Shown here in pieces: positions 15,689 through 35,465 of a stretch of 42,664 nucleotides of DNA. A model generated the notes under the pieces. The model saw only the letters and a program-made list of their open reading frames with translations. It had not been told where the DNA came from and did not search any database. How positions within the stretch are numbered: the stretch's first letter is position 1; each line of letters starts with the position of its first letter. Source of the stretch: Gammaproteobacteria bacterium (GTDB lineage: Bacteria > Pseudomonadota > Gammaproteobacteria > Thiohalomonadales > Thiohalomonadaceae); NCBI GenBank assembly GCA_003252455.1, contig QKED01000118.1, positions 1 through 42,664 on the forward strand, given 5' to 3'. Both the position numbers and the translations under genes were made by a program.

Positions 15689-15787
15689 TCCGGCGCTTGG
15701 CCCGATCGGGAACGCCTCAGGGGCTTTTCCCGCCCTCCCGTGGCGCCGATAATGGAACTCCCAGTTTCCATCCGCCGAGGGTCCCCT

Positions 15788-16819
15788 ATGCCACGCCCAC
15801 TCGTGCCGATCCTGCTCCTCGCCCTGGCGGCGGCGGGCTACTACGGCTGGCGTCAGAGCCAGCCCAGCCCCCCCGCCGCGCCCGGCAACGCCCTCACCCT
15901 CTACGGCAACATCGACCTACGTACCCTCAACCTCGGCTTCGAGGCGAGTGGTCGCGTCGTGGCGATGCATGCCCAGGAGGGGGCACGGGTCGCGGCGGGT
16001 AGCCTGCTCGCCGAGCTGGACCCACGCCGCCTCACCCTGCTGCGTGACGAGGTGGCGGCCAAACTCAAGGCCGCCGAGGCACAGCACGCCGAGCTGGTGG
16101 CCGGCACACGCCACGAGGAGCTTGCACAACTACGCGCCGAGCTGGCCGCCGCACGCATCTCCGCCACAAACGCCGGGAAGACCGCCGCACGCCTGCGCAA
16201 CCTCGCACGCGACAAGCTCACCACCCAACAGCAGGCGGACGACGCACGCAGCAGCGCCGAGGCCGCCGAGGCGCACGTCACCGCCCTGGAGGCTCAACTC
16301 GACCTGGCCGAGGCGGGGGCACGGCGCGAGACCATCGCCGCCAGCGAGGCCAACTTGGTCGCCCTACGCGCCGACCTCGACCTGGCCGAGTACAACCTAG
16401 AACAGACCCGCCTCCTCGCCCCGGCGGCGAGTGTGGTGCAGTCACGCCTGCTGGAGCCCGGCGACCTCGCGTCTACCACCCGCCCCGCCTACACCCTGGC
16501 CCTCACAGAACCGCTCTGGGCGCGTGTCTACCTGCCTGGGCCACGCCTTGGACAGATCCACCCGGGGCAACCGGCGCAGCTCTACAGCGACTCCTTCCCC
16601 GGTAAGGCCTACCACGGCTGGGTCGGCTACATCTCGCCGAGTGCCGAATTCACCCCTAAGTCGGTACAGACGAGCGAGGTCCGCGCCGATCTGGTCTACC
16701 AGGTGCGCATCTTCGTCTGTGACCCGAGCGATGAGCTGCGCCTCGGCATGCCGGTGACCGTCACCCTCGACCCCGACGCCCCCACCGTGCGCGACCCCGG
16801 CTGTCCCAGGGGGGAGTAG
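15788..16819 (+). CDS. ybhG: HlyD/YbhG-type membrane-fusion protein
   Basis: Periplasmic adaptor of an ABC exporter, anchored by one N-terminal helix (residues about 4-20, PLVPILLLALAAAGYYG). A biotinyl-lipoyl-like half follows (GNIDLRTLNLGFEASGRVV). Then comes an alpha-helical hairpin of about residues 80-195 rich in Ala, Glu and Arg, then the second lipoyl half (LLAPAASVVQSRLLEPGDLAS) and a beta-barrel domain. I choose the ATG at 15788 with GAGGG upstream; two in-frame starts at 15740 and 15752 would precede the membrane anchor with an unlikely tail. The next gene starts two bases after the stop, so this is the first gene of ybhGFSR. Confidence 0.9.
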   Translation: MPRPLVPILLLALAAAGYYGWRQSQPSPPAAPGNALTLYGNIDLRTLNLGFEASGRVVAMHAQEGARVAAGSLLAELDPRRLTLLRDEVAAKLKAAEAQHAELVAGTRHEELAQLRAELAAARISATNAGKTAARLRNLARDKLTTQQQADDARSSAEAAEAHVTALEAQLDLAEAGARRETIAASEANLVALRADLDLAEYNLEQTRLLAPAASVVQSRLLEPGDLASTTRPAYTLALTEPLWARVYLPGPRLGQIHPGQPAQLYSDSFPGKAYHGWVGYISPSAEFTPKSVQTSEVRADLVYQVRIFVCDPSDELRLGMPVTVTLDPDAPTVRDPGCPRGE

Positions 16820-16821
16820 CC

Positions 16822-18519
16822 ATGCAGGCGGTCCTACGCGCCGCGCAATTGTGCAAGGGCTTCGCCCGCGGCAAGTCACGCGTCGAGGCCCTCGATGAGG
16901 TGACCTTCGAGGTGCGCCCGGGGGTGGTCACCGGCCTCATCGGCCCCGATGGCGCCGGGAAGACGACCCTCATGCGCCTCGCTGCCGGGCTGCTGTTGCC
17001 CGATACAGGCAGCCTGGAAGTGATGGGGCTGGATGTGGTCAGCACACCGCTCGAAGTACAGGCGAGCATCGGTTACATGCCCCAGCGCTTCGGCCTTTAC
17101 ACCGACCTCAGCGTGCAGGAGAACCTCGACCTCTACGCCGACCTGCAGGGGGTCGACCCGCGCGCGCGCCCAGCGCGCTATGCCCGCCTGATGGAGATGA
17201 CTGGCCTCGCCCCCTTCACCGGGCGCCTGGCCGGACAGCTCTCCGGCGGCATGAAACAGAAGCTCGGTCTCGCCTGCACCTTGGTACGTCCGCCACGCCT
17301 GTTGCTGCTCGACGAACCCACCGTGGGGGTCGACCCGGTCTCGCGTCGCGAGTTGTGGGCCATCGTCTACCAGTTGGTGGAGCAGGAGCAGATGAGCGTA
17401 CTCCTCTCCACCGCGTATCTGGACGAGGCGCAGCGCTGCGCGGAGGTGGTGCTGCTGCATCAGGGGCGGGTGGTGGGCCAGGGCAGCCCCGACGCCTTCA
17501 GTCGTCCGCTACAGGGGCGTACCTATCAGGTCGGCCACCCGCAACTGGGGCGCCGTCGCTTACAGGCCGAGTTGGCCGCGCGCGAGGGGGTACTCGACGC
17601 GGTGCTGCAGGACGCCCAGGTCCGTGTGGTGACGCAGACCCCAGGTGCCCCTCCGCAACGCGGTGAGGAGCAGTGGCAGGCGGTCGCCCCACGCTTCGAA
17701 GACGCCTTCGTCGAGCGTCTCGCGGTGCCCCACCCACACCCTGTCCAGCTGCCAACCCAGGCGCCAGGTGAGGCGCGCGAGGTGATCAAGGTCGCTGGGC
17801 TGGAGCGCCGATTCGGTGCCTTTCGTGCGGTGCGCGACCTCAGTTTCAGTGTGCACAGTGGGGAGGTGTTCGGCCTACTCGGTGCCAACGGTGCCGGTAA
17901 GACCACCACCTTTCGCATGCTCTGTGGCCTACTCCCCCCGAGCGGGGGGCAGCTACAGGTGGCCGGCCATGACCTACGCCGAGCCGCGGCGCGCGCGCGG
18001 CGCGAGATCGGCTACATGTCCCAGCGCTTCTCCCTCTACGGCCACCTCTCCGTGGCGCAGAATCTCGGTTTCTTCGCCCGTGCCTACGGCCTGCGCGGTG
18101 ACTACCTACGCCAGCGCATCGCCTGGGCCATGCGGGAGTTCGAACTCGAACCGGTCGCCACGGTGGATGCGGTGGAGCTACCACTCGGCTATCAGCAGCG
18201 CCTGGCGATGGCCGCCGCCCTGCTGCACGAGCCGCGCATCCTCTTCTTGGACGAACCCACCTCCGGCGTCGACCCGCTGGCACGGCGGGAGTTCTGGGCC
18301 CGTATCAACGCCCAGGCGGAGGCCGGGGTGACGGTCTTGGTGACCACCCACTTCATGGAGGAGGCGGAGTATTGCGACCGCCTGGCGATCATGGCCTCAG
18401 GCGAACTGCTCGCCCTTGGCACACCGGCTCAGGTGCGCGCGCGCTGCACAGGGGCCGACGGGGTCGTTCCGAGCTTCGAGGAGGCCTTCATCCAGCTCAT
18501 CGAGGGGCATGCCGCATGA
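16822..18519 (+). CDS. ybhF: Tandem ABC ATPase, YbhF type
   Basis: Two ATP-binding domains in one chain of 565 residues, energising the exporter. The first has Walker A GPDGAGKTT (41-49), signature LSGGMKQKL (about 140) and LLLDEPTVGVDP. The second has Walker A GANGAGKTT (354-362), a non-canonical signature LPLGYQQRL in place of LSGG, and ILFLDEPTSGVDP. E. coli YbhF has the same LPLG substitution, so this is a family trait and not decay. The last bases overlap the next gene as ATGA. Substrate unknown; the E. coli system has been linked to drug efflux and sodium export, which I cannot test here. Confidence 0.93.
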   Translation: MQAVLRAAQLCKGFARGKSRVEALDEVTFEVRPGVVTGLIGPDGAGKTTLMRLAAGLLLPDTGSLEVMGLDVVSTPLEVQASIGYMPQRFGLYTDLSVQENLDLYADLQGVDPRARPARYARLMEMTGLAPFTGRLAGQLSGGMKQKLGLACTLVRPPRLLLLDEPTVGVDPVSRRELWAIVYQLVEQEQMSVLLSTAYLDEAQRCAEVVLLHQGRVVGQGSPDAFSRPLQGRTYQVGHPQLGRRRLQAELAAREGVLDAVLQDAQVRVVTQTPGAPPQRGEEQWQAVAPRFEDAFVERLAVPHPHPVQLPTQAPGEAREVIKVAGLERRFGAFRAVRDLSFSVHSGEVFGLLGANGAGKTTTFRMLCGLLPPSGGQLQVAGHDLRRAAARARREIGYMSQRFSLYGHLSVAQNLGFFARAYGLRGDYLRQRIAWAMREFELEPVATVDAVELPLGYQQRLAMAAALLHEPRILFLDEPTSGVDPLARREFWARINAQAEAGVTVLVTTHFMEEAEYCDRLAIMASGELLALGTPAQVRARCTGADGVVPSFEEAFIQLIEGHAA

Positions 18520-19628
18520 TCAATCGCCGCCTGCGCGCACTGCTACGCAAGGAGTTTTTGCAGGTGTGGCGCGACCCTTCGAGTATCGCCATCGCCTTCG
18601 TCCTGCCGGTCTTCCTGCTCTTGCTGTTCGGCTTCGGCGTCTCCATGGATGCCCGCCACGTCCCCCTCGGGGTGGTGGTGGAACGCCCCAGTTCGGTGAG
18701 CGAATCACTGGTCGCGGCGTTTCGCCACTCCGACTATTTCGCCCCACGCCCCTTCCTCTCGCGACAGGCGGGCGAGGCGGCGCTACAGGCCAACCAGGTG
18801 AACGGGTTGCTGATCCTGCCCCAGACGCTCGATGAACAGCTGAGCACGGGCCAGGGCGCAGGCGTGCAACTGCTGCTGAATGGGGTCGACTCCAACTCGG
18901 CGCGCCTGCTCCAGGGCTATGTACGCGGAGTCTTCGAGGGGTGGCTTGCGCGACAGCAGGCAGCGCGCGGTCGCGCGGGGGCTACGGTAGAGGCGCAACC
19001 ACGCATCTGGTTCAACCCGGAGCTGCGCAGTCGCAACTACCTGGTGCCCGGTCTGATGGTGATCAACATGACCCTGGTCGGTGCACTGCTCACCGCCCTG
19101 GTGATGGCGCGCGAGTGGGAGCGTGGCACGCTGGAGGCGCTGATGGTGACCCCGGTGACCCTGCGCGAGATCCTCATCGGCAAGACCCTACCCTATTTCA
19201 CCCTCGGCATGGGCGGCATGCTGCTCTCGGCCGGGCTCTCGATCCTGCTCTTCGAGGTCCCCCTGCGCGGCTCGCTCTGGGCCCTGATCCTCTTCTCGGC
19301 ACTGTTCATGTTGACCGCGCTGGGGATGGGCCTGCTCATCTCGGTGGTGGCGAAGAATCAGTTCGTCGCCGGGATGGCGGCCATCGTCTCGACCTTTCTA
19401 CCCGCCTTTCTCCTCTCCGGTTTCCTCTTCGACATCGACTCCATGCCCTGGGTGGTACAACTGGTGACGCACATCGTCGCCGCACGTTACTTCGTCACCA
19501 TCTTGCAGACGCTGTTCCTCGCCGGGGATGTGTGGGGGGTGATCCTGCCCAACGCCGCGGCCCTCTCGCTGCTCGCGACGCTCTTCTTCGGGTTGGCCCG
19601 GCGCCAACTGCACAAACGCTTGGAGTGA
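18516..19628 (+). CDS. ybhS: ABC-2 permease, YbhS type
   Basis: Membrane subunit of 370 residues. It has one N-terminal helix (residues about 20-40), a periplasmic domain of about 140 residues, then five helices starting near NYLVPGLMVINMTLVGALLTALVMARE. The EWERGTLEALMVTPV motif after that helix is the coupling-helix region typical of ABC-2 type export permeases. Start at ATG 18516 overlaps the ybhF stop by four bases; the longer upstream frame lies entirely inside ybhF. It pairs with YbhR as a heterodimer. Confidence 0.93.
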   Translation: MINRRLRALLRKEFLQVWRDPSSIAIAFVLPVFLLLLFGFGVSMDARHVPLGVVVERPSSVSESLVAAFRHSDYFAPRPFLSRQAGEAALQANQVNGLLILPQTLDEQLSTGQGAGVQLLLNGVDSNSARLLQGYVRGVFEGWLARQQAARGRAGATVEAQPRIWFNPELRSRNYLVPGLMVINMTLVGALLTALVMAREWERGTLEALMVTPVTLREILIGKTLPYFTLGMGGMLLSAGLSILLFEVPLRGSLWALILFSALFMLTALGMGLLISVVAKNQFVAGMAAIVSTFLPAFLLSGFLFDIDSMPWVVQLVTHIVAARYFVTILQTLFLAGDVWGVILPNAAALSLLATLFFGLARRQLHKRLE

Positions 19629-19631
19629 GCC

Positions 19632-20735
19632 ATGTACGCCATCATCGCCCTGGTGCTCAAGGAGTTGCTGGCGCTGCTCAAGGATAAGCGCAGCCGCATG
19701 GTGATCATCGTGCCACCGATCCTGCAGCTGCTGATCTTCGGCTACGCCGCCTCCTTCGACCTCGACCGACTCCCCTATGCGGTGCTCGACCGTGACGGCG
19801 GCGCAGGCGCCCGGGCCCTGCTCGCCGAGATGGCCGGTTCGCCCCACTTCGATGAGCGCTATCGGCTACGCGATGTGGCCGAGGTCGCCCGCCTCATCGA
19901 CCAGCAGGAGGTGCTGATGGTGGTGCAGATCGACCCACAGTTCGAGCGACGCCTGCAGGCGGGCGAGACGGCCCCGGTGCAACTCCTCATCGATGGACGC
20001 AACTCCAACACCGCACAGATCGTGCGTAGCTACGCCACCCAGGTGATCGAGCGCTTCAACAGCGCCTGGGGCGCACGCGCGAGTAGCGTCCCTCTGGCCC
20101 AGCTGGAGCCGCGCAGTTGGTACAACCCCAACCTGGAGAGTCGCTGGTTCTTCATCCCGGGGGTGGTGGGGATCCTCACCCTGGTGGTGACCATGGTCAC
20201 CACCGCCCTCTCGGTGGCGCGCGAGCGCGAGCAGGGCACCTTCGACCAGCTGTTGGTAACGCCGATGCAGCCGCTACAGATCCTCCTCGGCAAGGCGCTG
20301 CCCGGCCTGCTCATCGGACTCATCGAAGGTAGCCTGGTGGTGACCCTCGCGGTGCTCTGGTTCGAGATCCCCCTGCTCGGCTCGCTGGGGGCGCTCTATG
20401 CCACCATCGGCGTCTTTCTCCTCGCCGCGGTCGGGGTGGGTCTGATGATCTCCTCGTTGGTGAGTACCCTACAGCAGGCGCTCCTCGGTGCCTTTCTGTT
20501 CATGGTACCGGCGGTGATCCTCTCGGGCTTCGCCACCCCCATCGCCAACATGCCCGACTGGGTGCAGTGGCTCACTTACATCAATCCGATGCGCTACTAC
20601 CTCATCTGCCTGCGTGGTGTGTTCCTGGAGGCGACCCCGCTCACCGCCCTCTGGCCCCACCTCTGGCCGTTGATGCTCTTCGCTACCGTCAATCTCGGAC
20701 TCGCCGGGTGGCTCTTTCGCCATAAGCTCTATTGA
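19632..20735 (+). CDS. ybhR: ABC-2 permease, YbhR type
   Basis: Second membrane subunit, 367 residues, with the same fold as the preceding one: N-terminal helix, periplasmic domain, five C-terminal helices. VAREREQGTFDQLLVTPMQPLQILLGK is the coupling region. GFATPIANMPDWVQWLTYINPMRYYLICLRGVFL is the conserved end found in this family. It begins three bases after ybhS and ends the operon. The two permeases are clearly paralogous. Confidence 0.93.
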   Translation: MYAIIALVLKELLALLKDKRSRMVIIVPPILQLLIFGYAASFDLDRLPYAVLDRDGGAGARALLAEMAGSPHFDERYRLRDVAEVARLIDQQEVLMVVQIDPQFERRLQAGETAPVQLLIDGRNSNTAQIVRSYATQVIERFNSAWGARASSVPLAQLEPRSWYNPNLESRWFFIPGVVGILTLVVTMVTTALSVAREREQGTFDQLLVTPMQPLQILLGKALPGLLIGLIEGSLVVTLAVLWFEIPLLGSLGALYATIGVFLLAAVGVGLMISSLVSTLQQALLGAFLFMVPAVILSGFATPIANMPDWVQWLTYINPMRYYLICLRGVFLEATPLTALWPHLWPLMLFATVNLGLAGWLFRHKLY

Positions 20736-20832
20736 AAGTGGGCTGATAACACACACCACGTTAGAGTCTATAGGGTGTTTATCGATATCTATTCCACCCC
20801 ATTTCCGACGAATATATTAAGGTATATAGGGG

Positions 20833-20854
20833 CGTGCCATATAGGGGTGGCACG
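20833..20854 (+). terminator. Hairpin downstream of ybhR
   Basis: Seven-base perfect stem CGTGCCA/TGGCACG with an eight-base loop, about 100 bases after ybhR. No T-run follows, so termination activity is uncertain. Confidence 0.35.
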
Positions 20855-20874
20855 ATGCTCGGCGTGACTTTAAC

Positions 20875-20890
20875 AGGGTATATATACCCT
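20875..20890. repeat. Perfect 16-bp palindrome
   Basis: AGGGTATATATACCCT reads identically on both strands. It lies about 210 bases before the predicted hydrogenase transcription start and shares the TATAGGG/CCCTATA flavour of nearby repeats. Could bind a dimeric regulator. Confidence 0.6.
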
Positions 20891-21001
20891 GAAGCGAGAT
20901 AACATCCGACTGTACTAGTAAGTTATAGCCTGCCTTATCTACCCAATTCATTTCCCGTATCTTTTGTATGGTTGTAGCGAGTGAGACATAAATGTGTCCC
21001 A

Positions 21002-21012
21002 TTGTGCGACAA
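21002..21012. promoter_or_regulatory. TTG-N5-CAA element (HupR-type activator site)
   Basis: TTGTGCGACAA fits the TTG-N5-CAA dyad described for the NtrC-family hydrogenase activator HupR of Rhodobacter capsulatus. Its centre is about 91 bases upstream of the predicted transcription start, a normal activator position for sigma-54 promoters. No hupR gene is in the window. Confidence 0.5.
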
Positions 21013-21071
21013 CATACATTAGGAAAACGTAATAAAGACAATAATTTCCGCCATTTTTCAGGACTTGCCGC

Positions 21072-21087
21072 TGGCCTACTCCTTGCA
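21072..21087 (+). promoter_or_regulatory. Sigma-54-type -24/-12 promoter of hupSLCD
   Basis: TGGCCTACTCCTTGCA contains the invariant GG (21073-21074) and GC (21085-21086) exactly ten bases apart, with TGGC and TTGCA both matching consensus. Predicted start near 21098, giving an untranslated leader of about 53 bases before hupS. Confidence 0.68.
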
Positions 21088-21150
21088 CTCGCTCTATATT
21101 CCCTATGGGATATATGTGTCCTCTCAATCCACCCGGGGTAGCGAGTGAAG

Positions 21151-22233
21151 ATGAAAAAGAAAGTCACCACCTTCTACGATGTCATGGAGGCGCGCGGTAT
21201 CTCCCGCCGTGACTTCATGAAGTTCTGCACCACCACTGCCGCCAGCATGGGGCTCGCCTCCAGCATGGTGCCGCAGGTGGTCCACGCCATGGAGAACAAA
21301 CCACGAATCCCGATCCTCTGGATCCACGGCCTGGAGTGCACCTGTTGCTCCGAGTCCTTTATCCGTTCCGCGCACCCGCTCGCCTCCGACGTGGTGCTCT
21401 CCATGATCTCCCTCGACTACGACGACACCCTGATGGCCGCCGCCGGTCACCAGGCCGAGGCGATCCTCGATGAGATCCGCGAGGAGTACAAAGGCAACTA
21501 CATCGTCGCCGTGGAAGGCAACCCGCCGCTCAACAACGATGGCATGTTCTGCATCGTCGGTGGTCGCTCCTTCCTCGACCAGTTGATCGAAGTATCCAAA
21601 GACGCCCTCGCCGTGGTCGCCTGGGGCTCCTGTGCCAGCAACGGCTGCGTGCAGGCCGCCGCGCCCAATCCGACCCAGGCCACGCCGATCAAGAAGGTGA
21701 TCACCGACAAGCCGATCATCAACGTCCCCGGCTGCCCGCCTATCTCCGAGGTGATGACCGGCGTCCTCACCTACATCCTCACCTTCGGCAAGCTGCCCGA
21801 GCTCGACCGCCAGGGCCGTCCGAAGATGTTCTACAGCCAGCGCATCCACGACAAGTGCTACCGCCGTCCGCACTTCGACGCCGGCCAGTTCGTCGAGAAG
21901 TGGGACGACGAAGGGGCACGCAAGGGGTGGTGTCTCTACAAGATGGGCTGCAAGGGGCCGACCACCTACAACGCCTGCTCCAGCATCGGCTTCAACGAGG
22001 GTACCTCCTTCCCGATCAAGTCCGGTCATGGCTGTATCGGCTGTTCGGAGGAGAATTTCTGGGACAACGGGCCCTTCTATGAGCGTCTGACCCACGTCGA
22101 GGGCTTCGGCATCGAGTCCAACGCCGACACCATCGGCATGGGCGTCGCCGCAGGTACCGCCGCCGCCATCGGGGTGCACGCCGTCGCCAGCGCCGGTAAG
22201 CAGCTGACCAAGAAAGACGCAGAGAACACCTGA
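21151..22233 (+). CDS. hupS: [NiFe] uptake hydrogenase, small subunit (six-cysteine type)
   Basis: Electron-transfer subunit of the membrane-bound H2-uptake hydrogenase; 360 residues from ATG 21151 (a GTG six bases earlier is in frame). A Tat signal SRRDFMK is at residues 18-24, with likely cleavage after VHA (46). The proximal-cluster cysteines are C63, C66, C161 and C195, plus C65 and C166. In mature numbering these are 17, 20, 115, 149 and the two extra cysteines 19 and 120 that hold the [4Fe-3S] cluster of oxygen-tolerant enzymes. H233, C236, C261 and C267 fit the distal cluster; C276, C295 and C298 the medial cluster. A C-terminal helix (about 327-346) anchors it to the membrane. First gene of hupSLCD. 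Confidence 0.97.
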
Positions 22234-22286
22234 GCGCCGCCGCCGAGCCTGGCGCACAACCCCATCTAGAAGAGGTTCGTTGAACG

Positions 22287-24074
22287 ATGAGTACTACTCC
22301 AAACGGTTTTACCCTGGACAATAGCGGTCGCCGCCTGGTGGTCGACCCGGTCACCCGTATCGAGGGCCACCTGCGCTGCGAGGTGAACGTGGACGAGAAC
22401 GGGGTGATCCGCAACGCCGTCTCCTCCGGCACCATGTGGCGCGGCCTGGAGGTGATCTTGAAGGGCCGCGACCCGCGCGACGCCTGGGCCTTCACCCAGC
22501 GCATCTGCGGCGTCTGCACCGGCACCCACGCCCTCACCTCCGTGCGCGCCGTGGAGAACGCCCTCGGCATCACCATCCCCAAGAACGCCAACATCATCCG
22601 CAACCTGATGCAGTTGACGCTCTACGCCCACGACCACCTGGTGCACTTCTACCACCTGCACGCCCTCGACTGGGTCGATGTGGTCAGCGCCCTCTCTGCC
22701 GACCCGCGCAAGACCTCCGAGCTGGCGCAGTCCATCTCCAAGTGGCCTAAGTCCTCCCCCGGCTACTTCGCCGACCTGCAGGCGCGGGTGAAGAAGTTCG
22801 TCGAGTCCGGGCAGCTCGGTCCGTTCAAGAACGGCTACTGGGGCTCCCCCGCCTACAAGCTGCCGCCCGAGGCCAATCTGATGGCCGTGGCGCACTACCT
22901 GGAGGCGCTCGATTTCCAGAAGGAGATCGTCAAGATCCACGCCGTCTTCGGCGGTAAGAACCCCCACCCCAACTGGCTGGTGGGCGGCATGGCGTGTGCC
23001 ATCAACCTGGACGGCGACGGCGCCAACGGCGCGGTGAACATCGAACGTCTGGCACTGGTCGGCTCCATCATCGACCGCACCATCGAGTTCATCGACCAGG
23101 TCTACGTCCCCGACCTGCAGGCCATCGCCTCCTTCTACAAGGATTGGACCTACGGCGGCGGCATCTCCAGTCAGAACCTGCTCTCTTACGGCGACGTCCC
23201 CGGCGTGGCCAACGACTACTCCGCCTCCAGCCTGCTGCTGCCGCGCGGTGCCATCGTCGGTGGCGACCTCTCCACCATCCACGAGGTGGACCTCACCGAC
23301 ATGGAGCAGATCAAAGAGCACGTCACCCACAGCTGGTACAAGTACCCGAACGGCGAGGACGGCCTACACCCCTGGGCCGGTGTCACCGAGCCCCACTTCG
23401 AGCTGGGCCCCAAGACCGTGGGCGACAAGAAGCGCATCGAGGCACTCGACGAAGAGGGCAAGTACTCCTACATCAAGGCCCCGCGCTGGCGCGGTCACGC
23501 CATGGAGGTCGGTCCGCTGGCGCGCTACGTCATCGGCTATGCCCAGGGCAACCCGGAGTTCAAGGAGCCCACCGACAAGCTGCTACGCGACCTCGGTCTG
23601 CCGTTGGAGGCGCTCTTCACCACCCTCGGTCGTACCGCCGCCCGTGGTCTGGAGGCCTCCTGGGCCGCGCACAAGATGCGTTGGTGCTACGACGAGCTCA
23701 TCGCCAACCTCAAGGCGGGCGACAGCGCCACCGCCAACCCCGCCAAGTGGGAGCCCGAGACCTGGCCGAAGGAGTGCCGTGGTGTCGGCTTCACCGAGGC
23801 CCCGCGTGGTGCCCTGGGCCACTGGATCGTGGTCAAGGACGGCAAGATCGACAACTATCAGGCCGTGGTCCCCACCACCTGGAACGCCTCCCCGCGTGAC
23901 GCCGCTGGCAACATCGGCGCCTACGAGGCGGCCCTGCTCAACACCCCGATGGCCGATCCGGAACAGCCGCTGGAGATCCTGCGCACCCTGCACAGCTTCG
24001 ACCCCTGCCTGGCCTGCTCCACCCACGTGATGGCCCCTGACGGCGGTGAGCTGACTCAGATCCGCATCCGCTAA
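22287..24074 (+). CDS. hupL: [NiFe] uptake hydrogenase, large (catalytic) subunit
   Basis: Carries the NiFe(CN)2CO site that splits H2 in the periplasm; exported together with HupS through the Tat system, having no signal of its own. The 595 residues match the family. The N-terminal ligand pair is in [10 protein letters not shown] (C74 and C77). The C-terminal pair is in DPCLACSTH (C574 and C577). The enzyme is made as a precursor; cleavage after H580 would remove the last 15 residues ([15 protein letters not shown]), the job of HupD. It starts 53 bases after hupS with GAGG-type ribosome-binding sequence. Confidence 0.97.
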
Positions 24075-24098
24075 TGGCCAGGCCATAGGAGTAGAGCG

Positions 24099-24788
24099 AT
24101 GAGTAATGAACACGAAGAGAAGGTGCTGAGCATCTATGTGTACGAGGCGCCCCTGCGCCTCTGGCACTGGATCAACGCCCTGGCCATCACCGTCCTCGCC
24201 GTTACCGGCTACCTCATCGGGTCCCCCCCCGAGGCGATGATCGGTGAGGCCAGCGAACACTACCGCATGGGCATCATCCGCTTCCTGCACTTCGGTGCCG
24301 GATACGTGCTGCTGTTCGGCTTTATCGGGCGCATCTACTGGGCCTTCGCCGGTAACGAGCACGCCCGCGAGCTGTTCGTGCCCAAGATGTACTCGATCCT
24401 CTGGTGGAAAGAGCTGCTCACCGAGCTGAAGTGGTACCTCTTCCTGACCAAGGAGCCACACAAGTACGTCGGCCACAATCCGCTGGCGCAGTTCGCCATG
24501 TTCTTCATCTTCCTGGTGGGGATGGTGTTCATGATCTGCACCGGTTTCGCCCTCTACAGCGAGGGGGCCGGTGCAGGTACCTGGTCGGCGGTGGCCTTCG
24601 GCTGGGTACGCGACATCTTTCCCAACAGCCAGACCCTGCACACCTGGCACCACCTGGGGATGTGGTACCTGCTCACCTTCGTCATGGCACATGTCTATGT
24701 GGCGATCCGCGAGGACATCATGTCCCGTCAGTCCATCGTCAGCACCATGATCAGCGGCCACCGTCTGTTCAAGGACGACCGGCCATGA
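24099..24788 (+). CDS. hupC: Hydrogenase b-type cytochrome subunit
   Basis: Membrane diheme cytochrome b that passes electrons from HupS to the quinone pool; 229 residues. Four hydrophobic helices are visible: about 20-42, 63-84, 130-155 and 180-202. Histidines suited for heme binding sit at LRLWHWINA in helix 1, FLHFGAGYVLL in helix 2 and TLHTWHHLGMWYLL in helix 4. The start has a GAG-rich ribosome-binding stretch, 24 bases after hupL. The stop overlaps hupD by four bases. Confidence 0.95.
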   Translation: MSNEHEEKVLSIYVYEAPLRLWHWINALAITVLAVTGYLIGSPPEAMIGEASEHYRMGIIRFLHFGAGYVLLFGFIGRIYWAFAGNEHARELFVPKMYSILWWKELLTELKWYLFLTKEPHKYVGHNPLAQFAMFFIFLVGMVFMICTGFALYSEGAGAGTWSAVAFGWVRDIFPNSQTLHTWHHLGMWYLLTFVMAHVYVAIREDIMSRQSIVSTMISGHRLFKDDRP

Positions 24789-25324
24789 GCGAGACCCTGG
24801 TACTCGGCATCGGCAACCTGCTGTGGGCCGACGAGGGCTTTGGCGTGCGCACGGTAGAGCGCTTCAATCAGCTCTACCACGTGCCGCCGGAGGTGCGCCT
24901 GATGGACGGGGGCACCCAGGGGATCTACCTGGTGCAGTACATCATGCAGGCCAGGCGCCTGATCATCTTCGACGCCATCGACTACGGCCTCGCGCCGGGC
25001 AGCATGAAGCTGGTGCGTGACCGTGAGGTACCGTGTTTCATGGGGGCGAAGAAGATGAGCCTGCACCAGACCGGCTTCCAGGAGACCCTGGCCACGGCCG
25101 AGCTGCTGGGGAGCTACCCGCAGGAGATCCTGCTCATCGGCGTGCAACCCGAGGAGCTGGAGGATTACGGCGGGGGGTTGACGCCCACCGTCGAGGCGCA
25201 GGTCGAGCGGGCGATCGAGGTCGCCTGCGAGACGCTGGCGGATTGGGGGCATGAGGTGGTCGCGCGTGGCCCGGCCATGGGCGTCGCCCCCCTTTCACCC
25301 GACGGGCTCGGTCTAGTCGGCTGA
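24785..25324 (+). CDS. hupD: Hydrogenase maturation endopeptidase
   Basis: Cytosolic protease that removes the C-terminal tail of the HupL precursor after nickel insertion; 179 residues. The start MSETLVLGIGNLLWADEGFGVR is diagnostic. Expected nickel ligands are present: E17, D63 (IIFDAIDYG) and H94 (SLHQTGF). The open frame to the left is only the shadow of hupC; the ATG at 24785 overlaps the hupC stop as ATGA. It is the last gene before a terminator-like hairpin; no hupE-K or hyp gene follows. Confidence 0.96.
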   Translation: MSETLVLGIGNLLWADEGFGVRTVERFNQLYHVPPEVRLMDGGTQGIYLVQYIMQARRLIIFDAIDYGLAPGSMKLVRDREVPCFMGAKKMSLHQTGFQETLATAELLGSYPQEILLIGVQPEELEDYGGGLTPTVEAQVERAIEVACETLADWGHEVVARGPAMGVAPLSPDGLGLVG

Positions 25325-28283: not shown

Positions 28284-29633
28284 ATGGCCAATGTCAGCTA
28301 TAGCCTCGTCTATGAGGGAGAACTGACCCTGGGGCGTGATCCGCTCGAGGTGGAATACAATCTGGTCACATTCTTCAAGCTACCACAGCAGAAGGTCAAG
28401 GCGCTCATCGACCGGGGTCACGGCACCCTCAAACGCAACCTCACCCTGCCCGCCGCCGAATATATGCAGATGGTGTTCGCCGAGGTGGGGCTGAAGGTAG
28501 AGATCTACCACCGTACCCTCGCCAATGAGGCGCAGCCTGCCCGCGGCACCAAGGCGAGCAAGCCATCACCCAAGCGCGCGACAGCGATCCCGTTACACCC
28601 ACATCGCGCGGCCAAGCAGCAGGCCAAGGCGCGCCTCTACCCACATCTGTTTACCTTCACCGGTAGTGGCAGCGAGTACTTTCGCATTTGGTTCGTAAAC
28701 CTGCTGCTGACCCTGGTCACGCTCGGGCTCTTCAGCCCTTGGGCCAAGGTGCGCAGCGACCACTACTTCTACGCCAATACCTGGCTCGACGGCCACAAAT
28801 TCACCTACCACGCCGATCCCTGGGAGCTGATGCGTGAGTGGTCTACCCCCACCCTGGCCGCACTGCTCTGGCTGAATATCTACCTCTGCCACCCCATGGT
28901 GGCACCGCTGCTGGCCGTGGCCATGCTACCCATCATCCCCTGGCTGGTGGTTTACAGTATGCGCAGTCGGGCCAAGAACAGCACCTACCGCTACGTGCAG
29001 TTCCACTTCGACGGGGGCTACCGTGACGCCCTCGGCCCCTTCCTGCTCTGGCCCGTGCTGGCGCTACTCTCCCTCGGCCTGTTGCTGCCCGTGGCCATCT
29101 ACCGCCAGAACGCCTTTCTCATCGGCCAGAGCCGCTTCGGCAAGGTGCGCTTCAGCTTCAATGCCACGCTGCGCCACTACTACCGGCTCTACCTGCCACC
29201 GGTCCTCCTGGTGCTGACCCTGGCCGGTGCCCTCGGCTACCTCTACCTGCAGCTACCCGCCCCACTCTCGCCGCAACTGCGACTGCTACTACCACCAGGG
29301 CTGGTGCTCGGCGCACTGCTGCTCGTCACCTACCTGGGGGCCGCCGGGGCCAACCTACGCTATGCGGGGTTAAGCGTGGAGAAGCAGTCCTTCATCAGTC
29401 GTCAGCGTCCGTTGCAGCTGTTCGTACACCGCCTCAAGTACCTGCTCCTGATGCTCACCACCCTGGGGCTCGCCTATCCCTGGCTACGCGTGGCGCGGGC
29501 ACGCCTGCGCGCCGAGAGTCTGGCGCTGATGGCCGGCCAGGGCTTCAAGGAGTTCATCGAGCAGCAGGAGAACATGGGGCAGGCACCGACCTCCCCCGAG
29601 TTCGAACTCTTCACCTTCTCCAACGCGGCCTAG
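28284..29633 (+). CDS. DUF898 (YjgN-type) membrane protein
   Basis: Inner-membrane protein of 449 residues and unknown function. Residues 1-80 form a soluble domain (MANVSYSLVYEGELTLGRDP and following). Residues 85-115 are a basic Ala/Lys linker. The DUF898 membrane part follows, with repeated patterns FFRIWFVNLLLTLVTLGLFSPWAKVR-like and LFVHRLKYLLLMLTTLGLAYPWLRVA. Several helices and WAKVRSDHYFYANTWLDGHKFTYHADP are typical. Its last four bases overlap the end of convergent mrpG. No partner genes suggest a role. Confidence 0.88.
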   Translation: MANVSYSLVYEGELTLGRDPLEVEYNLVTFFKLPQQKVKALIDRGHGTLKRNLTLPAAEYMQMVFAEVGLKVEIYHRTLANEAQPARGTKASKPSPKRATAIPLHPHRAAKQQAKARLYPHLFTFTGSGSEYFRIWFVNLLLTLVTLGLFSPWAKVRSDHYFYANTWLDGHKFTYHADPWELMREWSTPTLAALLWLNIYLCHPMVAPLLAVAMLPIIPWLVVYSMRSRAKNSTYRYVQFHFDGGYRDALGPFLLWPVLALLSLGLLLPVAIYRQNAFLIGQSRFGKVRFSFNATLRHYYRLYLPPVLLVLTLAGALGYLYLQLPAPLSPQLRLLLPPGLVLGALLLVTYLGAAGANLRYAGLSVEKQSFISRQRPLQLFVHRLKYLLLMLTTLGLAYPWLRVARARLRAESLALMAGQGFKEFIEQQENMGQAPTSPEFELFTFSNAA

Positions 29634-29974
29634 CTGCGGACTCCATCACGTGGTTCGCCCACCGCGGGGGGCGCCGCACGGGTAGGTAGCCCGAGGTGGA
29701 GTGCCGCACGTGCGAGCAGATGGGCACTCACCGGCGCGGTGATGAAGAGAAAGAGTGTCACCAGCAGTTCATGCAGGCTCAGGGTGTCGCCCTGGCTGAA
29801 GTAGACCCCGGAGGCGATGAGCAGGCTCCCCACCCCCAGGGTGGTCGACTTGGTGGGCGCATGCAGGCGCGAGAGGAAGTCGGGCAGGCGCACCAGCCCC
29901 ACCGAGCCGACGAGGGTAAAGGCAGCGCCGAGCAGCACCAACAGGGCGAGCAGCGCCTCGATGAGCGGGTTCAT
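29630..29974 (-). CDS. mrpG: Mrp Na+/H+ antiporter subunit G
   Basis: Small membrane subunit, 114 residues, three helices. LLGAAFTLVGSVGLVRLPDFLSRLHAPTKSTTLGVGSLLIASGVYF holds the conserved LPDFLSRLHAPTK loop of the MnhG family. It is the last gene of the mrp operon, overlapping mrpF by four bases, and convergent with the DUF898 gene. Confidence 0.94.
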   Translation of the reverse strand: MNPLIEALLALLVLLGAAFTLVGSVGLVRLPDFLSRLHAPTKSTTLGVGSLLIASGVYFSQGDTLSLHELLVTLFLFITAPVSAHLLARAALHLGLPTRAAPPAVGEPRDGVRS

Positions 29975-30240
29975 TCGATGATGTCTCCACGTAGCAGGTA
30001 CTTACACAGGGCCAGGGTACCGATGAAGCCCATCAGGGCGATGAGCAGCGCCGCCTCGAAGTAGATCTGACTCTGCTGGCGGATGCCGAACAGCACAAGC
30101 AGGGCGATGGTGTTGATGTAAAGGGTATCCAACGCCAGGATGCGGTCGGGGGTACTCGGCCCGCGCATCAGACGCCAGAGGCTGAGGGCGAGGGCCAGCG
30201 CGACCATGGCCAGGGCGAGGGTGAGGGCGACGCTCAACAT
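29971..30240 (-). CDS. mrpF: Mrp Na+/H+ antiporter subunit F
   Basis: Small membrane subunit of 89 residues with three helices. RLMRGPSTPDRILALDTLYINTIALLVL has the conserved GP-TPDRILALD motif of MnhF. The ATG at 30240 lies within the end of mrpE (seven-base overlap). The same frame is open much further upstream, but only as an overlap with mrpE and mrpD. Confidence 0.94.
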   Translation of the reverse strand: MLSVALTLALAMVALALALSLWRLMRGPSTPDRILALDTLYINTIALLVLFGIRQQSQIYFEAALLIALMGFIGTLALCKYLLRGDIIE

Positions 30241-30728
30241 GGCTCCAATACCTCCTTGAGGGGCGCCTCGTAGCGCTGTTTGATCTCCGCCACCAGCGCT
30301 TCGGTATCCTCCACATGGAGGGCGTGCACCCAGAGTTCCGTGTGGTCCTGCGACAGGCGGGCCGCGACCGTCCCCGGGGTCAGACTGATGACGTTGGTGA
30401 GGATAGAGATGGCCAACTCGCTCTGCAGCGAGAGCGGCACCACCACGAAGGCCGGGTGCAACTGGCGCGGACGCACCAGGATCTGCCGCGCCACCGTGAT
30501 GTTGGCGGTGACGATGTCGTAGAGCACCAGGAGCAGAAAGCGCAGCATCAGCAGGGGGCGCGCCACCACCACCGTCTCGGGCCAGAAGGGCCGCGTGAAA
30601 AGCGGGATGAGCCAGGCGAAGAGCCCACCCACGAGCAACTGCGCGAAGCTGACGCTGTTTTGTAGCAACAGCCAGATGAGCAACAGGACCAAGCTGAGCC
30701 AAGGGTGAGGGAAGAGTCGGCGCATCAA
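30234..30728 (-). CDS. mrpE: Mrp Na+/H+ antiporter subunit E
   Basis: Membrane subunit of 164 residues. Two or three N-terminal helices (LFPHPWLSLVLLLIWLLLQNSVSFAQLLVGGLFAWLIPLF) precede a cytoplasmic domain with SELAISILTNVISLTPGTVAARLS and LWVHALHV, both conserved in MnhE. It overlaps mrpD by four bases and mrpF by seven. Confidence 0.94.
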   Translation of the reverse strand: MMRRLFPHPWLSLVLLLIWLLLQNSVSFAQLLVGGLFAWLIPLFTRPFWPETVVVARPLLMLRFLLLVLYDIVTANITVARQILVRPRQLHPAFVVVPLSLQSELAISILTNVISLTPGTVAARLSQDHTELWVHALHVEDTEALVAEIKQRYEAPLKEVLEPC

Positions 30729-32254
30729 GGCACCTCCACGTGTGGCGTGAGTACGGCATCGATGTAGTGCTGTGGGTCGAGCAGTTGTAGCGCCGTGGCG
30801 TCGGTAAAGTCGAGAAAGGCGGGGGCCGCGACCAGCAGCAACAGGGCGAGCCCCAGCAGCCAGAGCAGCGCGAGCAGCTCACCGCCCAAGGCGGGCAACG
30901 ACTTGGGTAGGGCATCCCCCCCCTCACCCCGATAGAAGACCAGACTGCCGCTGCGCGCCAATGCCACCATGGCGAGCAGGCTGGTCGATAGCACCACCGC
31001 GAGCACCCAGGCCGCCTGCGCATGGTCGAGTGCCGCGCGCAGCAGCAGCCACTTGCCGATGAAGCCCGACAGGGGGGGCAGGCCGGCCATCAACACCGCG
31101 GCGACAAAGAATAGCGCGCCGAGGATCGGCCCATCGGCCACCCGTACCCCTGGGGCGAGCCGGTCACCCAACGCCCCGCGCCGTAGCGCCACCGACTCGA
31201 CCAGCAGGAAGAGGATTGCCGCCGCGAAGGTGGCGTGCGGCAGGTAGTAGAGGCCGGCACTGAGGCCGGTCGCCGAGTCGAGGGCGAAGGCGGTGAGTAG
31301 CGTCCCGGCGGAGCCGACCACCAGATAGGCCACCTGTAGCGCGAGCCGGGTGGAGGAGAGGGCACCGAGGATCCCGGCCACCAGGGTGAGCAGGGCCAGG
31401 GGCAGCAGCCAGGGCTGATAGAGCCCGGCCAGCGGGCCGGCCAGCGGACCAAAGATGAGCGTCTCGACGCGCAGGATGGCGTAGGCCCCCACCTTGGTCA
31501 TCACCGCGAACAACACCGCCACCGGCAACGAGGCGCTGGCATAGGCGTTGGGCAGCCAGGGGTGGAGCGGCAGCAGCGCCCCCTTGAGGGCGAACACCGT
31601 CAGCAGCAGCAGCCCCGCCGCCGCCACCCAGCCCCGCTCAGCCGCACCTACCGTCCCCACCAGGCGCGCCATATCGGCCATGTTGAGGGTGCCGAGGAGA
31701 CCGTAGAAGAGCCCCGCCGCGATGAGGAAGAGGCTCGACCCGAGCAGGTTGAGCACCACGAAGTGCAGTCCAGCGCGCGTGCGCGCCGCCCCTCCCCCGT
31801 GCAGCAGCAGGCCGTAGGAGGCGAGCAGCAGCACCTCGAAGAAGACGAAGAGGTTGAACAGGTCACCGGTCAGAAAGGCGCCGTTGAGACCGAACAACTG
31901 CAGTTGGAACAGGGCATGAAAGTGCCGTCCGCGCGCATCGTAACCACGCAAGGCGACGGCGATGGCGGCCAGCGAGAGCAGCGCCGTCAACCACACCAGC
32001 GACGCACTGAGACGGTCCGCCACCAAGACGATACCAAACGGGGCGGGCCAGTCGCCGAGGGCATAACTGAGGGTCTGCCCACCGCTCACGGCGCTGATTA
32101 GGAGCAGTGCTACCAGGTTGAGATAGAGCACCGAGAGGGTACTGAGGGCGCGCGCGATGTGGCGTCGCGCCCCCTGGGGCTGGCTGCGCATCCAGAAGAT
32201 GCCGATGGCCGCCAGCAGCGGCACCAGCAGCGGGGTGATCAGCAGGTGACTCAT
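30725..32254 (-). CDS. mrpD: Mrp Na+/H+ antiporter subunit D
   Basis: Proton-channel-like subunit related to complex I NuoN/NuoM, 509 residues and about 14 helices. FFEVLLLASYGLLLHG has the conserved Glu in helix 5, and FALKGALLPLHPWLPNAYASASLPVAVLFAVMTKVGAYAILR is the Proton_antipo_M core with its Lys. Start at ATG 32254 (MSHLLITPLLVPLLAAIGIF), overlapping mrpC by four bases. Confidence 0.94.
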   Translation of the reverse strand: MSHLLITPLLVPLLAAIGIFWMRSQPQGARRHIARALSTLSVLYLNLVALLLISAVSGGQTLSYALGDWPAPFGIVLVADRLSASLVWLTALLSLAAIAVALRGYDARGRHFHALFQLQLFGLNGAFLTGDLFNLFVFFEVLLLASYGLLLHGGGAARTRAGLHFVVLNLLGSSLFLIAAGLFYGLLGTLNMADMARLVGTVGAAERGWVAAAGLLLLTVFALKGALLPLHPWLPNAYASASLPVAVLFAVMTKVGAYAILRVETLIFGPLAGPLAGLYQPWLLPLALLTLVAGILGALSSTRLALQVAYLVVGSAGTLLTAFALDSATGLSAGLYYLPHATFAAAILFLLVESVALRRGALGDRLAPGVRVADGPILGALFFVAAVLMAGLPPLSGFIGKWLLLRAALDHAQAAWVLAVVLSTSLLAMVALARSGSLVFYRGEGGDALPKSLPALGGELLALLWLLGLALLLLVAAPAFLDFTDATALQLLDPQHYIDAVLTPHVEVP

Positions 32255-32580
32255 CGCGGCGCCTCCTTGTCGACCCCATCGTGCCCATCCTCCGCGCGCG
32301 CCTTGAGGGCGAGCATGGTGACGAAGGCGGTCATGGCGAAGCCGATGACGATGGCAGTGAGCACCAGCGCCTGCGGCAGCGGGTCGGCGTACTCCGTGCC
32401 CACCTCCGAGAGGATCGGTGCCCGCCCGGGCAGTAGCCCGCCCATAGCGAAGAGGAAGAGGTTGACGGCATAAGAGATGAGCGTGAGGCCGAGCACCACC
32501 GGAAAGGTGCGCCCACGCAGGGTCAGGTAGACCCCACAGGCGGTGAGCAGGCCGACACTGAAGGCGTAGAGCAGCTCCAT
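32251..32580 (-). CDS. mrpC: Mrp Na+/H+ antiporter subunit C
   Basis: NuoK-like subunit, 109 residues, three helices. VYLTLRGRTFPVVLGLTLISYAVNLFLFAMG and DPLPQALVLTAIVIGFAMTAF are the conserved MnhC segments, with the DPLPQALVLTAIVI motif. The start codon shares a base with the stop of mrpA (TAATG), and GGAGG precedes it. Confidence 0.95.
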   Translation of the reverse strand: MELLYAFSVGLLTACGVYLTLRGRTFPVVLGLTLISYAVNLFLFAMGGLLPGRAPILSEVGTEYADPLPQALVLTAIVIGFAMTAFVTMLALKARAEDGHDGVDKEAPR

Positions 32581-35384: not shown

Positions 35385-35434
35385 AGCGACCCCCACTCGG
35401 TCGGCTTGATGGTGGTGTGTGAGGCGCGCCCCAT
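35375..35434 (-). CDS. Possible 19-residue leader peptide overlapping mrpA
   Basis: A short frame, MGRASHTTIKPTEWGSLCC, starts at ATG 35434 behind a textbook ribosome-binding site AAAGGAG (35446-35440) at five-base spacing, and stops at TAG ten bases inside mrpA. mrpA itself has only a G-run in front of its start. Ribosomes ending here could re-initiate on mrpA. No protein homology is claimed; a chance ORF is possible. Confidence 0.4.
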   Translation of the reverse strand: MGRASHTTIKPTEWGSLCC

Positions 35435-35450
35435 CCGATCTCCTTTGCGC

Positions 35451-35465
35451 CACGCCGAGGGCGTG
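35451..35465 (-). promoter_or_regulatory. Hairpin just upstream of the leader-peptide ribosome-binding site
   Basis: CACGCC and GGCGTG form a perfect six-base stem with a three-base loop, ending four bases before AAAGGAG. It could influence access to the ribosome-binding site; otherwise the 148-base gap between the ThiE-like gene and mrpA shows nothing I can name. Confidence 0.35.

Follow-up and report, generated by a model that had tools for sequence, protein, structure and literature searches.

A bare hupSLCD cassette for a six-cysteine [NiFe]-hydrogenase with a diverged signal peptide, with no HyaE or long HyaF found in the genome

The contig of 42,664 nucleotides analysed here (the window, meaning this whole stretch of DNA) carries a four-gene operon, hupSLCD, which probably encodes a membrane-bound uptake hydrogenase of group 1d that is made without HyaE or a long HyaF, has a HupH protein as its likeliest helper and serves at low O2. 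With its bare gene content, its diverged signal peptide and a genome in which HyaE and long HyaF were not found, the cassette is a variant of a known enzyme. Textbooks attribute O2 tolerance to the six-cysteine cluster, while how that cluster is put together and protected in the process is unsettled in the field. A naturally stripped six-cysteine system would reveal which helpers are dispensable and would offer a direct test of recognition by HyaF/HoxQ. It also calls for caution, as six cysteines alone do not warrant the statement that an enzyme works in air.

Table 1. Coordinates of the hydrogenase genes and of the small-subunit features in the window
Feature	Position	Strand	Details
hupS, [NiFe]-hydrogenase small subunit, six-cysteine (group 1d)	21151..22233	+	360 aa; TIGR00391 537 bits, cut-off 179.5
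Twin-arginine signal peptide, 46 aa	21151..21288	+	TIGR01409 33.5 bits, cut-off 16.7
C63, T64, C65, C66 codons (mature C17, T18, C19, C20), first proximal-cluster motif	21337..21348	+	
C161 to C166 codons (mature C115 to C120), motif CASNGC	21631..21648	+	
C195 codon (mature C149), sixth proximal-cluster ligand	21733..21735	+	
hupL, large subunit, 595 aa	22287..24074	+	Gln71 at the Hyd-5 Glu73 place, His229 place kept, DPCLACSTH
hupC/hoxZ, b-type cytochrome membrane anchor, 229 aa	24099..24788	+	TIGR02125 241.9 bits, cut-off 121.5
hupD/hyaD, large-subunit maturation protease, 179 aa	24785..25324	+	TIGR00140 206 bits, cut-off 151.8

Translated from its ATG at 21151 to the stop at 22233, HupS has cysteines at residues 26, 63, 65, 66, 134, 161, 166, 195, 236, 261, 267, 276, 295 and 298. 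The mature protein is predicted to begin at Met47, with cleavage between VHA and MENK, a site placed by alignment: residues 47-356 correspond to residues 1-310 of HoxK of Cupriavidus necator, and residues 47-354 to residues 1-308 of hydrogenase 1 (Hyd-1) of E. coli, with equal spans on both sides in each comparison. The first-pass annotation had numbered six proximal-cluster cysteines (63, 65, 66, 161, 166 and 195) as 17, 19, 20, 115, 120 and 149 of the mature protein, with the spacing of Hyd-1 and of the Ralstonia membrane-bound hydrogenase. Translation and both alignments confirmed this numbering, and the equal spans and identical mature positions confirmed the spacing; all six were matched in the alignment with group 1d small subunits. 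The match to HoxK, a protein of solved structure, reached 580 bits (E 1.4e-173), which dismisses a chance likeness, and identity in the alignment was 74%. The medial and distal cluster ligands are also present (mature H187, C190, C215, C221, C230, C249 and C252), as are P242 and Glu76 in mature numbering. Compared with the hupS of locus L043, codon positions 1, 2 and 3 are 80, 88 and 37% identical; the protein is therefore under constraint, which disfavours a dead operon.

The six cysteines as such are ordinary, and HupS adds one more member to a known group. Among 140 small-subunit frames from fetched loci, some of which overlap, 89 (three of them copies of the window gene) had cysteine at all six places; the pattern was C-G-C-C-G-C in 46 and odd or partial in five. 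A six-cysteine gene was present in all of the best 80 of 593 named genome loci, a count that is in part built into the method, since Cys19 and Cys20 belong to one of the two search patterns (TCC[ST]ESFI). A class-wide BLAST sample gave matches of at least 523 bits in 26 of 369 genomes, with the next class at 395 bits or less, and the cysteine motifs of every one of these 26 genomes were inspected, in sets of 22 and 4. In a quick tree of 108 rows, which left out short rows and the four-cysteine rows of named loci and was used only for the split between six- and four-cysteine enzymes and for the sister relation to L043, the 87 six-cysteine rows were set apart by a single branch with support 100. 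HupS lies on their side of it, inside group 1d, together with C. necator HoxK and E. coli HyaA. A careful tree of 48 rows, built on mature sequence only, supported the same split at 100/100. Membership of HupS in the six-cysteine (group 1d) lineage is well supported by alignment and trees, and with it the predicted [4Fe-3S] proximal cluster, which had been proposed at first pass from C65 and C166 (mature 19 and 120) standing where standard enzymes have glycines.

No match in the six-cysteine range was found among 19 genomes of the same family (best 378 bits); this lineage may therefore have acquired the cassette. Relatives of HupS are encoded in 126 plasmid records and three phage-collection records, the best at 78% identity. 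A phage or plasmid origin of the cassette was set aside, with no mobile-element gene among 16 flanking window proteins run through family libraries.

The operon consists of nothing but the hupSLCD cassette (21151-25324), in which the hupD ATG overlaps the end of hupC. Family profiles recognised the twin-arginine signal and the b-type cytochrome partner, and HupL has both metal motifs, L1 (RICGVC) and L2 (DPCxxCxxH). At the place of Glu73, HupL has Gln71 (codon 22497-22499), a residue common to L043. This place holds Gln in 19 and Glu in 89 of the 108 six-cysteine loci with a readable motif, so Glu does not define group 1d; nor does Gln follow the loss of helpers, since a long HoxQ/HyaF is encoded within the locus or the genome for at least 14 of the 19 Gln loci. 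Meanwhile, Asn164 of HupS (W118 in HoxK; codon 21640-21642) lies between ligands C161 and C166, at a position that is W, Y or F in 82 of 86 six-cysteine relatives. It is Ser in L043 and His in L061, L045 and L088; as L045 and L088 show HoxLOQRT matches, this residue is not strictly tied to helper loss.

Candidate promoter elements were set aside for hupS on near-chance counts or two mismatches. A sigma-70 scan of 20700-21200 returned a single site, located on the opposite strand; shuffled sequences gave 1.0 on average. FNR-like boxes (TTGATNNNNATCAA, up to two mismatches) number 16 in the whole window against a mean of 4.91 in shuffles, and the sole one upstream of hupS (20778-20791) has two mismatches, as does a -24/-12-like site at 21072-21087, a type with 21 occurrences in the window and 20.1 expected. 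Directly upstream of hupS, 15740-20735 encodes an HlyD-type protein, a double ABC ATPase and two RbbA-like permeases, an ABC exporter seemingly unrelated to the hydrogenase. Genes of a Mrp-type cation/proton antiporter occupy 29630-35453 on the minus strand, including one for a 957-aa protein with MbhD, MbhE and MnhB domains.

The window is a whole contig, and the operon lies in its middle, between flanks of 21 kb and 17 kb. Profiles of HoxL, HoxO, HoxQ, HoxR, HoxT and HypA to HypF had no match in the window, the HoxV profile met only hupL itself, and the HoxR rubredoxin profile had no match in contig C43 either. Across the genome (99.72% complete, 118 contigs), no match was found to HyaE/HoxO (PF07449) or to the HybE/HoxT family (PF11939), and no long two-domain HyaF/HoxQ was found, the sole PF04809 match being a single-domain HupH. 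In controls on 14 known genomes, PF04809 matched only E. coli, and PF07449 gave weak matches in thioredoxin-like proteins (seven of the 14 genomes, three above the cut-off).

The single-domain HupH is encoded on contig C43, between a protease gene and a four-cysteine hupS, adjoining hypD, B, A and C. Read from its first ATG it has 144 aa, and it covers only positions 158-276 of the 283-position HoxQ profile; the open frame measures 281 aa from stop to stop, so that the short length depends on the start codon chosen and on the profile coverage. The neighbouring small subunit is of the four-cysteine Isp type. This second hydrogenase locus (C43, L009, 2630-10373, and C47, L010, 5502-7211), an operon seemingly split over the two contigs, also holds Isp1/Isp2-like genes and a response regulator that has a DNA-binding domain at its C-terminus, besides hypDBAC, the protease and HupH. 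A third hydrogenase, a group-3b-like cytosolic cluster on C19 (L012, 2841-7584), comprises a large and a small subunit, an NAD-binding/diaphorase-like protein, a 4Fe-4S protein and a protease.

Helper genes were surveyed in 45 six-cysteine genomes: the own genome, 21 chosen mostly for the lack of helper genes at their loci, and the 23 remaining six-cysteine genomes of the class sample. Two of these (G194 and G073) look like one genome, with the same coordinates and scores, which leaves about 44 distinct genomes. HyaE was not found in 13 of the 45. Long HyaF was not found in four, namely the own genome, Thiotrichales BB31 (G056, locus L043), G032 (L014) and G058 (L061); G071 and G108 were counted as having it on one PF04809 match each, within a frame of 302 aa in the former and 285 aa in the latter, and a contig end truncates the PF04809 match in both G108 and G349. 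Of the 26 six-cysteine genomes in the class sample taken by itself, 24 had long HyaF, the exceptions being the own genome and G032. In G032 the operon, which seems to be divided between two contigs, retains HupF and a shorter HoxQ of about 180 aa, and thus does not have the same arrangement as that of the own genome. Neither HyaE nor any HupH was found in G058, whose signal peptide is canonical, and this genome counts against a simple rule linking the absence of long HyaF to signal departure. Its hydrogenase contig, 6.1 kb long, opens inside a divergent protease gene and extends about 1 kb past the cytochrome gene; with so short a contig, in a metagenome-assembled genome of 2.5 Mb and unstated completeness, the helpers may be unassembled.

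The signal peptides of six-cysteine enzymes are nearly frozen, reading about ETFYxVMRRxGxxRRSFxKxCSLTA. That of HupS departs from the 90% consensus of 86 six-cysteine relatives at positions 6, 13, 14, 21, 27, 28, 33, 37 and 44. The signal was readable in 99 of 112 loci (13 were unreadable): 87 keep R14, S21 and L28, nine miss one of them, and three, the window, L043 and L014, miss all three. Two of the 45 genomes (G071 and G108) have no readable signal; among the other 43, departures at two or more of these places occur in three of the four in which no long HyaF was found and in none of the 39 that have one, four of which show a departure at one place. The Fisher p values of 0.0003 with G058 and 0.00009 without it are uncorrected for kinship and so overstated. 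HyaE is disfavoured as the reader of the signal peptide, as 10 of the 13 genomes without it depart at fewer than two places, though p was 0.023. Nine genomes with a readable signal have long HyaF but showed no HyaE; all nine keep R14 and L28, and eight keep S21 (Lys in G349), which suggests that this stretch of the signal is kept in place by long HyaF rather than by HyaE.

The window and L043 are sisters in the mature-sequence tree (100/97), and L014, on a long branch, falls elsewhere in the tree at a weakly supported position (87/73). Two changes are required on the best tree, and the AU test does not reject a single clade (p 0.376). An independent-pairs test gave one (starred) or two independent contrasts; the traits coincide in those rows, and the test has no power. 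The association between signal peptide and HyaF thus appears to reflect one or two evolutionary events, at most two of them independent, and the Fisher values overstate it.

HyaE and HybE reportedly bind Tat signal peptides, and HoxO and HoxQ are said to bind the HoxK precursor. We tentatively propose that the two-domain HyaF/HoxQ reads R14, S21 and L28, and that the six-cysteine enzymes of the own genome and of BB31 have been re-addressed to the single-domain HupH of the four-cysteine enzyme, an explanation that is possible but falls well short of probable. If it is true, a [4Fe-3S] enzyme would be matured by the helper of a [4Fe-4S] enzyme, without HyaE and HyaF.

By likeness to its family, the enzyme would split H2 at the Ni-Fe site of HupL and pass the electrons via three clusters of HupS, proximal [4Fe-3S], medial [3Fe-4S] and distal [4Fe-4S], on to HupC and the quinone pool, and bound O2 would be removed with the help of the proximal cluster. 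Unlike in most relatives examined, assembly would proceed without HyaE/HoxO and without the long two-domain HyaF/HoxQ, on a HupS precursor whose signal peptide has lost the R14, S21 and L28 kept by the family. The likeliest helper would be the single-domain HupH of the four-cysteine Isp locus together with its HypABCD, and the enzyme would most likely be assembled and used at low O2. For the four-cysteine HynSL of Alteromonas, according to passages of one report, HupH is required for maximal activity in E. coli, and this HupH has only 11% similarity to that of T. roseopersicina (PMC3102683). This requirement, taken with the apparent need of the C. necator enzyme for auxiliary proteins under aerobic conditions, makes low-O2 maturation with the HupH of the four-cysteine enzyme the best reading. 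Collectively, the gene content and the signal peptides suggest that a six-cysteine enzyme is matured without its usual chaperones, perhaps through that HupH.

It had been suggested at first pass that the host may oxidise H2 under microoxic or oxic conditions. Microoxic oxidation stands as our best guess; the oxic half lacks such support, given that no HyaE, HybE/HoxT or long HyaF was found, that HupL has Gln at the Glu73 place and that a six-cysteine enzyme working only at low O2 is on record. This is the group 1d enzyme of Methylacidiphilum fumariolicum SolV, described as active only at low O2, below 0.2% (PMC5364354; restated in PMC12319191). HupSL of T. roseopersicina is considered unstable and oxygen-sensitive in a source that does not exclude proteolysis (PMC6981441). 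Because the usual helper proteins seem to be absent, activity in full air is not to be assumed.

Alternatively, the cassette may encode a fully air-tolerant enzyme of the knallgas type, its missing helpers replaced by unrecognised genes or simply unneeded. We consider this rather unlikely, although all cluster ligands and Glu76 are conserved, the identity to HoxK is high (74%), and the cytochrome b and protease are in place. Nor is a full hox set universal, given that E. coli has only hyaE and hyaF after hyaD and that no HyaE was found in 13 of the 45 surveyed genomes; a six-cysteine enzyme of Aquifex even shares the Gln (TQ) motif of HupL (PMC6981441). Against air tolerance, aerobic cluster formation and rearrangement in C. 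necator appear to need auxiliary proteins, among which HoxR has been linked to the Cys19 bridge (PMC10583674), and replacement of Glu73 by Ala in Salmonella Hyd-5 abolished H2 oxidation in air (PMC3940037), Gln being outside that test; the SolV enzyme, too, shows that six cysteines may go with activity at low O2 only.

It is improbable that the enzyme, its six cysteines notwithstanding, forms the [4Fe-3S] cluster badly and is O2-sensitive or poorly active, drifting after helper loss. Such drift would fit the failure to find HyaE, long HyaF and the HybE family in the own genome, the Asn164 and Gln71 at mostly conserved places and the diverged signal peptide. It fits poorly with intact cysteines and other ligands, with the constraint on codon positions 1 and 2, with the same state in two hosts of very different base composition, and with a Gln that recurs in 19 of 108 six-cysteine loci, most of them with a long HoxQ/HyaF in the locus or elsewhere in the genome. 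Least probable is that the helper genes sit in gaps between the contigs, as they could in an assembly of 118 pieces in which the Isp operon itself is split over C43 and C47, or that the contig is contamination from another organism: the long flanks hold no helper genes, tetranucleotide correlation with 25.7 kb of three other own contigs is 0.98 for the window and 0.95 for the operon alone, which disfavours contamination, and the BB31 genome shows the same helper absence.

The preferred reading, a six-cysteine enzyme assembled at low O2 with few helpers, can be set beside known systems. No description of a bare cassette with a diverged signal and without HyaE or long HyaF was found in a search mostly outside subscription journals, which is weak evidence. 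The HoxKGZ enzyme of C. necator (group 1d, PDB 3RGW and 5MDJ) has the same six cysteine positions, medial and distal ligands, b-type cytochrome and protease. It differs in its signal peptide, in mature residue 118 (W, against N in HupS) and at the Glu73 place (E, against Q), and its genes stand in one run with hoxLOQRTV and hyp genes, whereas the window has no hoxLOQRT match. In C. necator, Rhizobium and Acidovorax, hoxL, O, Q, R and T and the hyp genes follow the structural genes, hoxV being annotated in C. necator, while in Azospirillum the hox/hyp helper genes lie upstream of them. The hyaABCDEF operon of E. coli hydrogenase 1 has the same order of small subunit, large subunit, cytochrome and protease, but hyaE and hyaF come next, where the own genome yielded neither HyaE nor long HyaF.

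By description rather than by sequence, the cassette resembles the Hup enzyme of M. fumariolicum SolV, which in passages of PMC5364354 combines a six-cysteine small subunit, a short cluster and a second hydrogenase elsewhere with activity only at low O2; the SolV cluster (hupSL, hupZ, hupH) contains a hupH, and the window cassette has none. The closest relative is Thiotrichales BB31 (L043, 100/97). Its HupS has Ser at residue 164 where the window has Asn, its flanks are unrelated, and its DNA has 47% GC against 64%; in comparisons of the window with L043 and with the BB31 Isp stretches, the only real matches were the four hydrogenase genes and their four-cysteine relatives. No HyaE was found in BB31, and its one HupH, a single-domain protein in a frame of 150 aa, stands beside its four-cysteine enzyme. 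Both genomes nevertheless carry the same bare four-gene cassette, with the same kind of diverged signal peptide and the same Gln motif in HupL.
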